The notes below the pieces were generated by a model. That model was not told the DNA's origin. It saw only the letters and a list, made by a program, of their open reading frames with translations, and did no database searches. This document shows positions 20,666 to 63,285 of a stretch of 64,000 bases of DNA, piece after piece. Origin of the DNA: Sacculina carcini (lineage: Eukaryota; Arthropoda; Thecostraca; Sacculinidae); NCBI GenBank assembly GCA_916048095.2, contig OU696582.1, forward strand, positions 5,948,770 through 6,012,769, read 5' to 3'. Each line of letters begins with the position of its first letter. Position 1 is the stretch's first letter. Position numbers and translations under genes: made by a program.

Positions 20666-21335
20666 TCATATGTTAAAAGCATGTACATACAACACCTAGA
20701 CAAACAAACACATACACACATACATTAATTAATAAACACACCCGCACACACATACACACAGGACAATTGCTACACACAAGCACATTCGTGCAGTAATTGT
20801 AAATGTGGTTTACTACATGAAACGTAGTGTTTGATAATATATTTGCCTTTGCTCGGCAAAAGTGTCTTAAACATGTGGTGTATTTGGCGTAATGTTGGGG
20901 ATGAAAATTGATGATGCAGATGAAAATTTGGGGTAATATGTTGTTACATCAAAAATATTATGTTTTAAAAATATTCCGTCAAATATTGACTCTAACAATA
21001 CAGTAGAAATGAGGTTGTGAAATTGATTTTATCTTCATTTTTGTGTGTAAAATTTGCCTAGCAAATCACAAGCGAAGCTAGCACATACAACATCAACAAC
21101 TCAATGCAAAACGTGCTTTCTCAAACCGGCTCTTATATAGGCCCATTTTTATTCAAACCAAAATTAAGTTCAGAATAAGGTCATGTGACAAGCCATATGC
21201 AAGCGTTCACAAGCAAATCATATTCTAATAATAAAACGAAAACAAATATAATTCATAATGAATATAATCTACAAATCGCCCAAATTCCCCTTCTATATAT
21301 ATATTCATTCCTTATATATATATATAGCTCATCGC

Positions 21336-22608
21336 TTGTTGTGCTGAAGAAAGACGATTACTTGAGAAAAATTAACGAAATATTGAGCGACAGCACAAAG
21401 TTCAAACAAATCCGCAAAAATCCCACAGATGATATCAAGAAAAAACTCAACAGGCTGATCGAACAGTTTAACAAAGCTGACGACACACACAAACTGGCCA
21501 CGTTGACTGGCGAATTCGCACCTGGATACGTATATGGCAACGTCAAAACGCATAAGCCTGGTCATCCACTGAGACCAATAATTTCGCAAATCCCGACTGC
21601 CACCTACAATGTTGCAAAAAAGCTGAACCAAATCCTGCGACCATACGTGCAGTCTGATTACAGCTTAAGCAGCTCGCAGGATTTTTTGGAATTATTGAGA
21701 ACAGAAAATCAGGAAGGTGATATAATTGCATCTTTGGATGTCGAAAGCCTCTTTACAAACGTCCCAGTAACCCGCACCATCGACATAATAATGGATCGCG
21801 TGTACAGATGCGACAAAACGCAACCACTAAAAACACCTGAGAGAGTATTGCGTGCTATATTGCGTGTCTGCACCAAGGAAGCTCCCTTCATCAGTCCCGC
21901 TGGGCAGCTATACCAGCAGGTGGATGGAATAGCGATGGGTAGTCCCTTGGGTGTTCTTTTCGCTTATTTCTTCCGGGTGCAGCGGAGACAAATGTGCTCA
22001 AAAACAGCAAGCCGGCAATATACTGTCGGTTTGTTGATGACATATTTATCAGAGTCACATCACCGAATGAAATTGAACACCTGCAATTGGCACTTGAAAG
22101 TTAAACATCACTTAAACTCATCAAAGAATGTGCGCAGAATGATCGTTTGGCATTCCTCGATGTGCTAGTTAAGTTGAACGGTGAACAAACAATCACCAGT
22201 GTTTACACCAAATCCAGCAAAGCAGGTTTGTGCCTGAATGGTCAGAGCGAGTGTCCGAAAAGATACTTACGCTCCACGATTTCTGCGTACGTCCGACGTG
22301 CCCTGACGCATTGTTCATCATGGAAATCGACGCACAACGAGCTCGAGCGAATCACACAAGTTTTGGTTAACAATGGATATTGCAACAAGGACATATCAGA
22401 CGTCATATCTGAGGCGTTGAACAAATATTTCAAGACGGACGCGTCAACCAGTCCAAACGATAAGTGTATACAATTATACTACAAAAACATAATGTCGACA
22501 GCACACAGAGTGGACGAGCGTGTGATGAGAGATATTGTGACCAAAAATGTGACAGCTTTTGACGACAATACTCGAGTAAAACTTGATATTTATTACAGCA
22601 CACAATAA
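21336..22608 (+). pseudogene. Penelope-like reverse transcriptase (broken)
   Basis: The template-primed RT of the element. The frame used at 21336-21975 carries motifs A and B; the +1-shifted frame from about 21985 carries the catalytic VDD and the thumb region (AFLDVLVKLNGEQTITSVYT). One frameshift and one internal stop before the terminal stop make it nonfunctional. Confidence 0.9.
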
Positions 22609-22617
22609 ACAGCAAAC

Positions 22618-23058
22618 TTGGTTCTTCGAAACAAGCCGGAGAGTGACAAGCCCGCGCAGCTGCAGCAGCATCACGTCGTGTACCAATTTCAATGCAGCGT
22701 CGAGGGTTGTTTACCTCACACATATATTGGCATGATGACGACGACGCTGTCCCGGCGGCTGACTTGCCACCTCAACAAGGGTGCAATCAAGAGGCATTTC
22801 AGTTCGGCACATGACAGAAAAATCACACGTCAATACATCGTCGAAGGAACACAGATTTTGGCCCGCGAAAACGACGCACGGCGATTGCGCATGTTAGAGG
22901 CGGTATATATCACCCAGCTGAAGCCGACGCTGAATATACAGCTCGAAGAAAACGGTATTCTGCCAACTCACCGAGCCCCCCCGTTGGAGCGAAACTCGAC
23001 GCGCCCCTGCGACAGCCAGCCAACACCACTTTCACACCTACCAGACAATGTCACCTAG
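22618..23058 (+). pseudogene. Penelope-like GIY-YIG endonuclease domain
   Basis: Continues the same frame as the downstream RT after the stop at 22606. Shows FQCSVEGCLPHTYIG, TLSRRLTCHL, RHFSSAHD, ARRLRMLEAVYITQLKPTLN. The GIY-YIG fold nicks DNA for target-primed insertion in this family. The conserved nuclease core looks intact, but no functional start remains. Confidence 0.88.
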
Positions 23059-24430: not shown

Positions 24431-24982
24431 CGCGCATGTCCGCGGCCGCAGCCGCTGCCGCCGTCAGCGGCCCGGCCTACCGCTCTCACCTTCCCGTCTA
24501 CTCATGGGTAGGCAACGGCGACAACAGCATCGACAGTCTGGGTGCCGGCGGCGCTCAATCGGGAATTGACAGGCACGCCGGCATGCTGGCCGCCTCTCCG
24601 TCAGCCGCCGCTGCCGCCGCCGCTTGGTGCTCGCCGCCGTTCAGCGCGTCACGGACGCACAGTCCCGGCGGTGGCGGCGGTGTACCGGTGAGTGCCAGTG
24701 TCGCGCCTGGCTTTCACTACCCGCCGACGCCGCCTAAGGACGCCGCAACCCCCGACGCCACACTGGGTCGCGCATCTGCCGGCGTGGCCTGCGCCTCGCC
24801 GGCGTCCACCGCGTCTCCGGCAGCCTCCGTCGCTGCTGCGTCGTACGCCGTAGCTGCAGCAGCAGCTGCCGCAGCCGCCTCTGGAAATTTTGGTTCGGCG
24901 CAGTCGCTGGCCGGTGTGTGCTCGGTTGACGCGATCGACGTGAAGCCGACCATCGTGCACGGCCTAATGAAACAGCGAGAAG
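24431..24982 (+). CDS. GATA1/2/3: GATA1/2/3 exon 2, possible short form (alternative donor)
   Basis: An internal G|GTACGA at 24983, after KQRE, is also in phase 1. Its use would shorten exon 2 to 184 codons and join directly to either N-finger exon, giving [13 protein letters not shown]. It would remove the second part of the transactivation region: Ser-rich, His/Gln-rich and the basic KFKSRSSA stretch. The donor is weaker than the one at 25529, and the sequence between them still looks coding, so this is an alternative at best. Transcript evidence would decide. Confidence 0.4.
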
Positions 24983-25528
24983 GTACGACAGACGCGATCG
25001 CTTGCAGTTCCTCGTCATTGTCCTCTTCCAATTCCTCCTCTTCTTGTGCCTCCTCCGCTTCCTCATCATCAGGTTCGGCTGGCCTGCGACAGTCGTCCGA
25101 GCTTGATGGCAGCGTCGGCGAGTGCGCTGCACCACCGCCGGAGCCCACAACATCACTCTCATACAGCCTGCCACTCCATCACCAGCATCATCACCCAGCC
25201 CACAATCTCCAGCAACACTCCGCGTCTGCGTCGCATTTCGGTGTTGCCTCGCAGCTGCCGCACCTTCATGCGACTCATCCGCTGCACGGTCAGCAGCCAC
25301 AGCAGGCCTCTTGCAGTACGGCTGTGGTGTCGGGCGACGATGACCGTACGGTTCCTGGGGCCACTTCGTCCACCTACCATTCCGGTGAATCGACGACGGT
25401 TGAATGCCAGGCGTCGCCGGACGCTGCCGCATCGACTCCCGGCTACAATTACCAGACAGCGCCGGCGTCGACATACGCCATGAAAGCGTCGCCGCCACGC
25501 TGCAAGTTTAAGTCACGCTCCTCGGCCG
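24431..25528 (+). CDS. GATA1/2/3: GATA1/2/3 coding exon 2 (long form; transactivation region)
   Basis: Exactly 366 codons, phase 1 at both ends. The acceptor is aatacag| behind a (TG)-rich tract; the donor is G|GTAAGA at 25529. In order it encodes a poly-Ala start, AAWCSPPFSASRTHS (comparable to NPWTVSPFSKTPLH of GATA2), FHYPPTPPKDAAT (the class-specific PPTPPK motif), further poly-Ala runs, a Ser-rich run, a His/Gln-rich stretch and finally CKFKSRSSA. That last stretch, joined to EGRECVNCG, parallels [19 protein letters not shown] in GATA2/3 and marks 25528 as the canonical donor. The frame stays open past the donor to TGA at 25576-25578. GC content is far above the flanks. Skipping this exon would keep the frame. 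Confidence 0.88.
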
Positions 25529-26509: not shown

Positions 26510-26695
26510 CAGAGCCGTAGCATCCGCCCGCCGTACATCCCGGCCGGGGGGGGGGCGAATGTTGAGGGGCCCTTTTGCTTTACGTATTATGTGATTATGC
26601 CAAATAAATGCATTCATTACTTGGTGATTTATTCACAATGGAGGCCCCAAGTGTTGCCTTCGGGGGGGGGGGCATAATTCCTCGCAACGGCTCTG
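26510..26695 (+). mobile_element. hAT-like MITE, family A copy 2, with 8-bp target duplication
   Basis: A 186-bp element from CAGAGCCGTAGCATCC to CCTCGCAACGGCTCTG. Identical flanking 8-mers TCTACGCC at 26502-26509 and 26696-26703. Inner part deleted relative to the 255-bp copies. Unusually long G runs are present. Confidence 0.9.
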
Positions 26696-29110: not shown

Positions 29111-29256
29111 AAGGTCGCGAGTGTGTCAATTGCGGCGCTACCTCGACGCCGCTGTGGCGACGCGACGGCAACGGACACTATCTGTGCAACGCCTGCGGCC
29201 TCTACTACAAGATGAACGGCCAGAATCGGCCACTGATCAAGCCAAAACAGCGAGCT
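29111..29256 (+). CDS. GATA1/2/3: GATA1/2/3 alternative N-finger exon N1
   Basis: A complete GATA N-finger. The first codon is split (G from exon 2 plus AA), then [19 protein letters not shown] and [17 protein letters not shown], ending KPKQRA. The four zinc-binding Cys (C-x2-C-x17-C-x2-C) and the E, V, G, D and H positions used for FOG contact in the family are all present. The acceptor ttgcag follows a T-rich tract; the donor GCT|GTAAGT at 29257 is strong. Compared with N2 it differs at four residues: Thr to Asn, His to Tyr, Arg to Gln and Leu to Ala. Most of the 22 nucleotide differences I count by eye are silent, which points to purifying selection. N1 ends in phase 0, so it can join the C-finger exon but not N2 in frame. 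It is less like the family consensus than N2 in the basic tail. Confidence 0.88.
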
Positions 29257-29355
29257 GTAAGTACAAGTCGCTCTAGACCAGTCTTTTCACTAACATCGCA
29301 ATTGGTGGTGGTGGTGGTGTGTGTGTGTGGGTGTGTGTGCGTGCTGCAACCGCAG
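29257..29355 (+). other. 99-bp intron between the alternative N-finger exons
   Basis: Begins GTAAGT and ends CGCAG. The 3' half is GT-rich (ggtggtgg then tgtg runs), with few pyrimidine runs other than T alternating with G. UG-rich RNA is a known target of CELF-type and TDP-43-type proteins, so this is a plausible control site for the choice between N1 and N2. The sequence flanking the two exons shows no extended similarity to the other copy, so the duplication is not recent. Confidence 0.7.
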
Positions 29356-29501
29356 AGGGTCGCGAGTGTGTCAATTGCGGCGCTACCTCAACGCCGCTGT
29401 GGCGCCGTGACGGCACAGGCCACTATCTGTGCAACGCCTGCGGGCTGTACCACAAGATGAACGGCCAAAACAGGCCGCTGATCAAGCCCAAGCGACGTCT
29501 G
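29356..29501 (+). CDS. GATA1/2/3: GATA1/2/3 alternative N-finger exon N2 (canonical-type)
   Basis: Second N-finger exon, the same 146-bp length and phases as N1 and about 85 percent identical to it. It encodes [37 protein letters not shown] and KPKRRL, matching the vertebrate GATA1/2/3 consensus; splicing to SAARRAG in the next exon rebuilds the standard inter-finger linker. The acceptor accgcag lies behind a GT-rich, pyrimidine-poor stretch, and the donor CTG|GTGGGT at 29502 is of moderate strength. Together these make its splice sites weaker-looking than those of N1. Read after N1 it would be out of frame and stop at 29458-29460. Confidence 0.9.
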
Positions 29502-30649: not shown

Positions 30650-30905
30650 AAGAGCCGTAGCAACCGCCTCCCGTACCCCCCAGCCGGGGGGGCCCGAATG
30701 TTGAGGGACCCCGTTACTTCACGTATGATATTAAAATGTATCATATTTATTATGTATAGCCTTTACCTTTTTGCTCAGATGTTTTCAACTGAGCTTGTAT
30801 TATGTGAATATGTCTAATGAATGAATGCATTATTTGGTGTTTTATTCATAATGGGGGCCCCAAGTGTTGCCTTCGGGGGGCCCATAAGTCCTCGCGACGG
30901 CTCTG
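30650..30905 (+). mobile_element. hAT-like MITE, family A copy 3, inserted in a CA repeat
   Basis: A 256-bp element with AGAGCCGTAGCAACCGCC and CCTCGCGACGGCTCTG ends. It is flanked by CACACACA on both sides, consistent with an 8-bp target duplication made inside a (CA)n tract; the downstream CA run continues to about 30990. Confidence 0.85.
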
Positions 30906-31586: not shown

Positions 31587-32668
31587 GCTGTGGCAACAAA
31601 GCGTGATACAACTGGCAACTCGGATTAGCAGAGTTGCCAGTCAGCGTTCACGCCGGCTGCGTTGTCTAGCGTGTCACCTCCGCCGTGCAAATATCAACTC
31701 ATTATGCATGCCAGGGTAAACAGTCAAAGTGTGCCCTCACAACTGGGGGAGGGGGGGGGATTTGTCAGCATATGTTGATTAAAAGCGGGTATGGGAGCTT
31801 GAATAAGACCTAAAAAGGGATGAAGTCAAATATCGGTTTTAAATTTACAAATAATCCTTTCTTAAATTAGATACTTAAAATCTATTAGTTTTATTATCTT
31901 AGATTATTAATGCAAATAAAACACACAAAAATGGTTTGGGAATAGATCATCTTCGAATTAAACTTGAGCCCCATTTGAAATTCTTCTTTCAACCTGGCGC
32001 CTTGCAATGTTGATCAGACTTAGCTGCTCTTCCCTGCAATGTTGCAACGGTCAAAGTGTCTGTCTATCTGCGGCTATAATTTTGGTTTAATTAGCGGTAG
32101 TATTTACAGAACATTTTAACCTCATTACTCCAGCAATAACCAAACGATTATGTTTTTGAATTACTGCCAAGCGATCGTAGAGATCCTTTCTGCCAAATTG
32201 TTGTTAAGCAAATCTTTACAGATAAAAAAAATCTTGCATATGACATGAACGAAAAAGTACGACCATATCGCGCCAAGAAATAATGTTCGGAAGTCACTGG
32301 CAAAACACGTTAATTCATAAAAATCATATTTGTTTTGTGGTGGCATTATAATTGAATGTATATTAAAGATTTTCCTGCATGTATTAATTAATTTTATCAA
32401 CATTTTGCATGCTTATTTGTGGTATCATCATTTTTCATGTTTTTTCTCATTTTAATGAACGAATCTAGACAATTCAAATGACATTTAATTTATCCATGCA
32501 TAGATTAGTTGCGTTGAATTTCACATAAACACCCCACCTTTTAATCAAATTAAAGTATAATCTTTATTAGCGATGTGAAGCATACGTATTTTCTTATTTG
32601 ATGATATATACTTTCCCAAAAGAAATGCTTATTCACAAACAAAACAACGTCACAAATGTGTGTGTGTA

Positions 32669-32670
<2 letters not shown>

Positions 32671-32720
<50 letters not shown>
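32671..32720 (+). repeat. (TG)25 abutting the C-finger splice acceptor
   Basis: Uninterrupted TG run immediately followed by the TAG acceptor at 32721-32723, with less perfect TG/TATG sequence before it from about 32657. It stands where a polypyrimidine tract would be expected. Confidence 0.95.
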
Positions 32721-32723
<3 letters not shown>

Positions 32724-32849
32724 TCAGCGGCTAGAAGAGCGGGTACTTCTTGTTCCAACTGTCAAACAACAATGACCACGCTGTGGAGACGCAACGGTCA
32801 GGGAGAGCCTGTATGTAACGCTTGTGGCCTCTACTTCAAGCTACACAAC
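32724..32849 (+). CDS. GATA1/2/3: GATA1/2/3 C-finger exon
   Basis: A 42-codon exon, phase 0 at both ends. It encodes [40 protein letters not shown] and HN, the DNA-binding C-terminal zinc finger, with Cys spacing C-x2-C-x17-C-x2-C. One Thr of the usual QTTTTTLWRR is replaced by Met. The acceptor is TAG directly behind an uninterrupted (TG)25 at 32671-32720, with no ordinary polypyrimidine tract. The donor is AAC|GTGAGT at 32850, followed by (CT)n and (CA)n. Because the length is a multiple of three, skipping would yield an in-frame N-finger-only protein. Confidence 0.95.
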
Positions 32850-52001: not shown

Positions 52002-52382
52002 GTGAACCGGCCGATCACAATGAAGAAGGACGGCATTCAGACCAGAAATCGCAAGCTGTCGTCCAAGTCGAAAAAGAAGAAGGGCTTTGTCGGATTGGAA
52101 GGTATGATGCGACCTCTGGACAAGGCCGGCTTCGGCTTTGGAGCGGCCAACTTCGCTGGTGCCGGCATGCCTCCCTACATGTACCAGAACAACGTTCAGA
52201 TGGGCGCGGCCGCCGCTGCTGCTGCCGCCGCCGGCTTCGTCGCCCCCCAGATGGGCATGGGAGCGGTGGGGGGCATGGGACATCTCGGCATGGGCAACTT
52301 CGGAATCGCGTCTACTTCGAGCGGTGCAATCAATGGTCACTGGATGATGCCGGCCTCCACATCAGGAGCTATTGTGAGTTGA
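52002..52382 (+). CDS. GATA1/2/3: GATA1/2/3 last recognised coding exon (C-terminal tail)
   Basis: The acceptor ttgtgcag is followed by VNRPITMKKDGIQTRNRK, the basic tail after the C-finger that contacts the DNA minor groove and carries a nuclear signal. Then come LSSKSKKKKG, a Gly/Met-rich region with a nine-Ala run (MGAAAAAAAAAG, MGMGAVGGMGHLGMG), and HWMMPASTSGAIVS followed by TGA at 52380-52382. The family usually has a basic K/S-rich patch here, as seen. A GTGAGT at 52374-52379 overlaps the last codons in phase 0, so splicing to an unseen further exon cannot be excluded; I recognised no such exon downstream. Confidence 0.9.
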   Translation: MNRPITMKKDGIQTRNRKLSSKSKKKKGFVGLEGMMRPLDKAGFGFGAANFAGAGMPPYMYQNNVQMGAAAAAAAAAGFVAPQMGMGAVGGMGHLGMGNFGIASTSSGAINGHWMMPASTSGAIVS

Positions 52383-62654: not shown

Positions 62655-63181
62655 TCAGACCTTATATTCAGTACTAATATATACAATATTATTAAGACAG
62701 TAATAAGACTTAGTGAGAAAGAAATTTTTAGTATGTTTTTTGAAAAGAGATAGAGATTTGATTGAGCGTATTGAGGGAGATAGCCTATTGTAGATACGAG
62801 GTCCTAAGATAGAGAAACAACGATTGTAGTGAGAATGCCTAGAAGGAAAGGAAGGTTCAACTAAAAGAAAAGGATCGTTAGAAGACCTAAGAGAAAGAGG
62901 TGAGGTTATATAAGAGAGGAGGTCAAACAGATACGCAGGCTTACGAAGATGAAGAGCTGAATGAATAATTAAACAAAAACGATACTCAACAAGAGCCTTG
63001 ATGGGAAGTAACCTAAGTTTTTGTAAAGAAGAAGAGACATGAGAACCCGAAGGAAGATTAAATATCATACGACAAGCTTTATTAATAATAGATTGAAGTT
63101 TCCTAAGCTGGCGGTGGTTGAGAGATAGTAGAAGAGAACAGCAGTACTGAATTTTACTAAAGATGAATGAATTAGCTAACT
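62655..63181 (-). pseudogene. LINE (non-LTR retrotransposon) ORF2 C-terminal end, minus strand
   Basis: One open minus-strand frame reads LANSFIFSKIQYCCSLLLSL, NHRQLRKLQSIINKACRMIF, LRLLPIKALVEYRFCLIIHS, KPAYLFDLLSYIT, LRSSNDPFLLVEPSF and FSILGPRIYNRLSPSIRSIK to a stop at about 62655. It has the layout of the reverse-transcriptase C-terminus of L2/CR1-like LINEs (S.L.YC..LL, LP+..R..FK, P.YL.DLL, LRSS, WN.LP..IR). 5' truncated; the 3' UTR runs into CA repeats. Confidence 0.8.
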
Positions 63182-63285
63182 TGAACGCAGCAGAGATAGT
63201 TATCTACGAATGGGATAGATATATCTACGAATGGAATAGATACGCCTTAGTTGACATATAGTTGACACACGCCTTAGTTGATACG

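Follow-up and report, generated by a model that had tools for sequence, protein, structure and literature searches.

Two neighbouring exons for complete N-terminal fingers in a GATA1/2/3 gene of Sacculina carcini: probable mutually exclusive alternatives of crustacean and ancestral type

The stretch of DNA analysed in this work (the window) covers 64,000 nucleotides of a 9.5-Mb contig in a 264-Mb assembly of Sacculina carcini, and it carries on its plus strand a gene whose predicted isoforms each contain two stretches matching the profile PF00320, followed by a basic tail of the type NRPxTMKKxGIQTRNRK. Judged by this arrangement of its sequence, the gene is a GATA1/2/3 (grain-type) transcription factor gene. 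The nearest named proteins to it in protein searches are from barnacles, and the best named matches that cover its full length are GATA-2/3/C-like proteins of barnacles and decapods. Two other proteins (viz. P0001 from Mya arenaria, 912 aa, and P0002 from Leptotrombidium deliense, 567 aa) outscored the named barnacle and decapod matches in the first protein search; both of these are annotated with two finger pairs each, and they may represent neighbouring genes that were fused, or else proteins that truly have four fingers. The different parts of the gene, with positions counted from the first letter of the window, are as follows:

24436..25528, plus strand: coding part of exon 2, from the ATG to the long donor, encoding the N-terminal half (including FHYPPTPPKD and SRSSA) and ending in phase 1
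24983..24988, plus strand: alternative donor of exon 2 (AAG/GTACGA), also in phase 1, leading to a short form ending in KQRE
29111..29256, plus strand: exon N1, crustacean-type N-terminal GATA finger ending in KPKQRA (PF00320, 65.4 bits), donor GTAAGT
29257..29355, plus strand: intron of 99 nt between N1 and N2
29290..29294, plus strand: branch-point-like CTAAC (a motif match), with its A at 29293
29356..29501, plus strand: exon N2, ancestral-type N-terminal GATA finger ending in KPKRRL (PF00320, 61.1 bits), donor GTGGGT
32724..32849, plus strand: exon for the C-terminal GATA finger, 126 bp, phase 0 to 0 by frame check (PF00320, 61.3 bits)
52002..52382, plus strand: exon E5, basic tail and C-terminal region (VNRPITMKKDGIQTRNRK...), with a stop at 52380-52382 unless a donor after 52373 is used

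The long donor of exon 2 reads CCG/GTAAGAAG, and the frame is open up to this donor and joins in frame to either N1 or N2. Exon 2 can be aligned with the protein P0004 from Pollicipes, and the junction KQRE-EGREC, matching the use of the short donor, is present in the protein P0005 of a relative and in the barnacle protein P0006. Just ahead of the stop in the tail exon there is a possible donor (ATT/GTGAGT, 52373-52382); the proteins of relatives end in GWR-DYS, and a motif search of the plus strand up to position 6122769 of the contig (C16) revealed no terminal exon of the GWR-DYS type. Across the 264-Mb assembly the 551-bp block with N1 and N2 is matched over its full length once, and due to this no repeated or haplotig copy of the block is present there; the match next to this is the N-finger exon belonging to another GATA gene.

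Several other features of the window may be mentioned here. Two direct copies of a dispersed repeat (26511-26695 and 30651-30905), about 4.1 kb apart, flank the N1/N2 block; a genome search for this repeat gave 1,689 first-look candidates, and the 40 of these that were scored all matched. The window contains 84 TG/CA runs that are 12 nt or longer (e.g. 29317-29343 and 32654-32722), and the acceptors of both N2 and the C-finger exon lie within TG-rich tracts. Two open frames (21179-23058 on the plus strand and 62655-63203 on the minus strand), which we take to resemble retroelement fragments, had no Pfam match at the default cut-off, and no match was seen in Rfam and tRNA scans across the window. 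A search for COX1 in the assembly gave no match. Further GATA fingers are found elsewhere in the assembly (C4:1833990-1871009 and C7:1464350; loci L005, L007 and L008), where the adjacent finger-like CxxC stretches look degenerate.

Exons N1 and N2 are each 146 bp long with AG/GT borders, they run from phase 1 to phase 0, and both of them complete a glutamate codon that is begun by exon 2. If exon 2 is joined to either N1 or N2, and then to the C-finger exon and E5, the frame is open in both cases and the product is 581 aa long. If N1 and N2 are both included after exon 2, then the frame stops at 29458, and if both are skipped, so that exon 2 is joined directly to the C-finger exon, then it stops at 32732; thus the reading frame allows the single inclusion of N1 or N2 alone. 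The use of the short donor of exon 2 gives a 399-aa product, versus 581 aa for the long form, and there are four frame-keeping isoforms arising from two forms of exon 2 and two N-fingers. In the accessible part of PMC3228551, tandemly duplicated mutually exclusive exons are recognised as adjacent homologous exons that share length and phase and have splice sites of their own, and N1 and N2 show all of these characteristics.

An earlier note on this DNA had placed N1 and N2 at these same positions, with the same length and phases, and the recomputed values agree with it exactly to the base, as do the stops that it had predicted for the joining of N1 to N2 and for double skipping. Its statement that each exon encodes a full N-terminal GATA finger is borne out by the PF00320 scores of both exons (65.4 and 61.1 bits). 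It had also stated that the gene encodes two proteins differing only in the N-finger; of this the single-inclusion frame stands, but the number of isoforms has to be revised, as four are open by means of the second exon-2 donor. The exclusion was further described as enforced by the frame, and while it is correct that there are two intact exons, each usable alone, the frame lock should not be interpreted as separate evidence for a switch. The copying of any 146-bp exon that runs from phase 1 to phase 0 will automatically lead to such a lock, and hence it cannot count as independent support for a regulated choice. The N-finger exon of the paralogous gene described below is also 146 bp long and in the same frame (its bounds being drawn by alignment).

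The 99-nt intron between N1 and N2 is below all 41 of the introns estimated in the genome (smallest about 118, median 793), whose sizes are approximations from profile gaps in chaperonin and proteasome genes, and one of which may be no intron, as the two matches on either side of it lie in one and the same 374-aa open frame. These 41 are the adjacent pairs kept from 76 profile matches by a filter (gap of less than 30 kb, with profile ends agreeing to within 15 positions) that dropped all other pairs. The A of the CTAAC motif (29293) is 37 nt away from the donor of N1 and 62 nt away from the acceptor of N2, and the stretch from this A up to the acceptor AG is free of AG; the motif is the sole CTAAY match in the intron, a looser TTCAC being present at 33 nt. 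Such a motif, at any position, together with the AG-free run was seen in 1.8% of dinucleotide-shuffled introns. In the accessible part of PMC7969005, OGDH exons 4a and 4b are exclusive due to branch points located 25-41 nt from the upstream donor, and a threshold of about 50 nt is proposed. If the branch point of N2 is at this motif, and thus similarly close to the N1 donor (about 37 nt), then it would be too near for both halves of the spliceosome and the splicing of N1 to N2 would be blocked. Each pre-mRNA would then keep exactly one of the two exons, N1 or N2, joined to the shared C-finger, and any products of double inclusion or skipping would presumably be cleared by nonsense-mediated decay. 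The donors of the two exons (GTAAGT for N1 versus GTGGGT for N2) suggest that N1 may be the default choice and that N2 may need help.

However, long AG-free runs also precede two other exons of this gene, viz. exon 2 (106 nt) and the C-finger exon (99 nt), as compared with about 72 nt for N2, and due to this it is the position of the motif alone that is telling, which lowers the weight of the proposed steric step. Animals with small introns also tolerate short distances between the donor and the branch point. Pairing between the introns around N1 and N2 gave no signal beyond that of shuffled sequences in three duplex tests (in which 36, 7 and 3 of 40 shuffled versions paired as strongly as the introns themselves), which took 1.5 kb of each flanking intron, the full lengths being 3.6 and 3.2 kb; the 25 inverted repeats listed, out of 253, are TG/CA-rich runs.

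The two exons differ from each other at 22 of 146 bases (124/146 identical), mostly in silent positions, so that only 4 of the 48 encoded residues are changed. At the codon level the silent proportion is 0.445 and the replacement proportion is 0.050, corresponding to a dN of 0.052, a dS of 0.675 and a dN/dS of about 0.08. Based on the identity in bases, the few residues changed and the bias towards silent changes, a chance likeness of N1 and N2 is ruled out. The finger encoded by N2 is identical in all 48 residues to those of human GATA-3 (PDB 4hc7) and P0005 of the relative, and that of N1 is identical in 47 of 48 residues to the barnacle proteins P0003 and P0004. Among the best 120 of the 4,906 matches in the first protein search, the exact N2 type is present in 53 proteins, the N1 type (DGNG...YYK...KPKQR) in 32, an intermediate type (DGTG...YYK...KPKRRLS) in 23 and other types in 12. 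All 28 of the named N1-type proteins among these 120 are from crustaceans (barnacles, decapods, a stomatopod, krill, amphipods and an isopod). This distribution among the listed relatives indicates that N1 is a crustacean-type finger and N2 an ancestral animal-type finger. The four differing residues, which we take to correspond to positions 220, 232, 246 and 248 of GATA1, are in N2 all pan-animal residues, and the differences at these positions could tune the binding of the N-finger to DNA or to partner proteins.

The codons of N1 and N2 also bear upon the time of their separation. In 29 of 42 degenerate codons for the same residue the two exons share the codon, versus 19.4 expected at saturation (P 0.001), and this excess implies that N1 and N2 separated after the gene duplication or that partial homogenisation of the two has taken place. 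Going by the sequences, N2 may have been either retained or re-evolved. That all four of its differences from N1 are pan-animal argues for retention, whereas the absence of N2 from the named barnacle and decapod proteins listed argues against it. Among the proteins listed, which were clustered at 90% and may thus conceal isoforms, each type was found alone and in no case were both types found in one gene of a relative. In P0005, N2 is joined to exon 2 with an N2-type junction on a contig of 3,032 bases, and this sequence appears cDNA-like, as its 658-aa frame spans on 3,032 bases parts that are spread over about 28 kb in the window. The barnacle isoforms P0003, P0004, P0006 and P0007 (a set without Amphibalanus isoform X2) are all N1-type. 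In the third protein search, no fragment of a close relative joining N1 or N2 to the C-finger was present among the best 120 of 2,788 matches, as judged from the match table and the inspection of 22 sequences, 20 of which were new matches.

The contig carries a second GATA gene on its minus strand, whose N-finger occupies 6087345-6087506 and whose C-finger is found near 6077263 (contig positions; loci L015 and L016). It lies about 109 kb from N1 and has a single, N1-type N-finger, which reads LTKPKQRM and continues SASRRSGTTC, whereas N1 of the window gene reads LIKPKQRA. The combination LTKPKQRM-SASRR-GTTC is common to this paralogue and the Pollicipes protein P0154 (LTKPKQRM-SASRRAGTTC), and N1 matches the exon of the barnacle main gene, LIKPKQR[A/M], as seen in P0004 and P0007 of Pollicipes. 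Since Pollicipes has proteins of both kinds (viz. P0004/P0007 and P0154), the gene pair would predate the split from barnacles; Macrobrachium and Homarus also have two GATA1/2/3-like proteins each. Based on these residues, N1 is probably the resident exon of the window gene and not a newcomer. A search of loci L009-L019 (C16 6012770-6122769) revealed no recognisable basic-tail exon (NRPxTMKK...) of the paralogue, even with the barnacle P0154 as query, and this gene may have a diverged end or may be decaying.

N1 and the paralogous exon are nearly identical over most of their length. The last 16 intron bases are the same and only 2 of the first 122 exon bases differ, versus 8 of the last 24 bases (Fisher P 6e-6), and the two could be aligned no further than about 20 bases into the upstream intron and, on the downstream side, the GTAAG. 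The C-finger exons of the two paralogues, in contrast, are saturated at silent sites, with 16 of 33 degenerate codons for the same residue shared versus 14.0 expected (P 0.29). These results fit better with a short and recent gene-conversion tract, in either direction, between two old exons, viz. N1 and that of the paralogue. We also considered whether N1 had recently been inserted from the paralogue, but rejected this as its origin: there are 8 differences in the last 24 nt, the sequences on the donor side do not resemble each other, and Pollicipes already shows the I/T difference that separates the two genes. It follows from the conversion that the intactness of the first 122 nt of N1 is partly borrowed; the last 24 nt and the donor are unaffected, and in this part, outside the patch, 7 of 8 residues of the barnacle main gene are kept and are followed by the GTAAGT donor.

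Judging from the sequences described here, we consider it fairly probable that N1 and N2 are mutually exclusive exons and that the gene makes proteins with either a crustacean-type or an ancestral-type N-finger and the same C-finger. This reading is favoured by the frames and stops, by the dN/dS of about 0.08 and by the presence of two intact, phase-identical exons in a single copy. It is favoured further by the conservation of N1 with barnacles and of N2 with the cDNA-like P0005 of a relative, and by the 99-nt intron with CTAAC at 37 nt and an AG-free run, in analogy to OGDH. On the other side, the barnacle isoforms seen are of the N1 type only and the pair has not been seen outside this lineage; no fragment of a close relative joining N1 or N2 to the C-finger was among the 120 listed; the first 122 nt of N1 are partly borrowed; CTAAC is a motif and a candidate branch point; and no intron-pairing signal beyond that of shuffles was seen in the 1.5-kb flanks. 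The steric step is in addition weakened by the long AG-free runs elsewhere in the gene and by the tolerance of short donor-branch distances.

If instead an exon replacement is under way, then only one exon will be in use (N2 having taken over, or N1 having stayed) and the other will be a recent relic that has not decayed. We regard this as unlikely, though with some weight, as only N2 is seen in P0005 of the close relative and only N1 in the barnacle proteins, and as gene conversion with the paralogous exon has refreshed part of N1 and could keep a relic intact. However, the last 24 nt of N1, which lie beyond the converted patch, are still barnacle-like (7/8 residues) and lead into a GTAAGT donor, and the changes between N1 and N2 are strongly biased to silent ones. 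The early stops in the double and skipped forms, located upstream of further junctions, could alternatively point to unproductive splicing, where the second exon is a poison exon and double inclusion or skipping lowers the GATA output by decay. This is improbable, since a poison exon has no need for a finger that is intact and conserved, whereas both N1 and N2 keep finger residues found in relatives, and the layout with a 99-nt intron disfavours their joining.

Alternative first exons are a common feature of GATA genes, and the protein P0159 has a short N-terminus ahead of its finger. The two exons could also belong to separate transcription units, in which an internal promoter leads to an N-terminally short form with one exon and the long form contains the other, the choice being made by the promoter. 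However, N1 and N2 both have acceptors and a phase fitting exon 2, and N2 is joined to exon 2 in P0005 as N1 is in barnacles, which make this explanation distinctly improbable. Lastly, a near-identical N1-type exon about 109 kb away might raise suspicion of an assembly artefact merging two alleles or paralogues, but there are 22 differences over the 146 sites of N1 and N2, their flanks are unlike, the block is found once and lies on a contig of 9.5 Mb, and the 3' end and donor side of N1 differ from the paralogue; an artefact is in our view extremely improbable.

The mutually exclusive use of N1 and N2 can be extended to a broader reading, which we put forward tentatively and regard as somewhat doubtful, that the gene has preserved the N-finger in its two historical states, as a pair of mutually exclusive exons, and switches between them over the life cycle, leading to two DNA/cofactor codes with one C-finger. 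In this case, the ancestral copy would have either been kept beside the derived one since before the split of barnacles and decapods, or have re-evolved after a younger exon duplication. In flies, according to the accessible part of PMC8844375, the N-finger restricts which targets of the C-finger are regulated and is needed with the FOG-type cofactor Ush. If an exchange of two intact N-fingers does take place, it would provide a natural experiment on the role of four residues, and it would represent diversification of a transcription factor at the level of exons rather than of genes, with old and new domain states at one locus. The linked paralogue and the conversion patch make the history of N1 and N2 testable.

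Among the systems to which this locus can be compared, the barnacle GATA1/2/3 pair (P0004/P0007 and P0154 of Pollicipes) shares the residues that tell the window gene from its paralogue, but in the sequences seen it has only N1-type N-fingers and no N2. With regard to mechanism, the exons of alpha-tropomyosin are exclusive due to a distant branch point. Both alpha-tropomyosin and OGDH are vertebrate genes in which the branch points have been mapped, whereas in the window gene there is the motif alone. The likeness of N1/N2 to OGDH 4a/4b lies in the branch point near the upstream donor (25-41 nt in OGDH, in the accessible part of PMC7969005).

The earlier note knew of no described animal gene that switches the N-finger exon, and this overstates the case, as the accessible parts of two papers describe this for exons 4A/4B of insect serpent (PMC8844375) and for amphioxus GATA456 (PMC2857956). 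Exons 4A and 4B, at the N-finger position, are spliced in a mutually exclusive manner, for which a duplication of the N-finger exon has been proposed as the origin; thus serpent (a GATA456 gene of Drosophila and hexapods) is similar to the window gene in being an arthropod GATA gene with an exclusive choice at this exon. However, it belongs to another GATA class and, so far as the same part of the paper goes, 4B contains no known motif, so that the choice is between a finger and none, whereas N1 and N2 are both complete fingers. The exclusion in serpent is attributed, in the available part of PMC6071210, to intron complementarity, which was not found around N1/N2 in the 1.5-kb flank tests. In amphioxus GATA456, the alternative second exon at the N-finger position removes the first finger, whereas both alternatives of the window gene keep it. 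No description of a GATA pair in which both alternative exons bear a finger was found in our searches of the open-licence literature, and the accessible parts of PMC9664023, PMC9013439 and PMC2383905 contain no case of this kind. Thus, as these partial sources have it, GATA genes that swap the N-finger exon for an alternative without a finger are already known (serpent and amphioxus GATA456), whereas two finger-bearing alternatives, one ancestral and one crustacean-type, look new.
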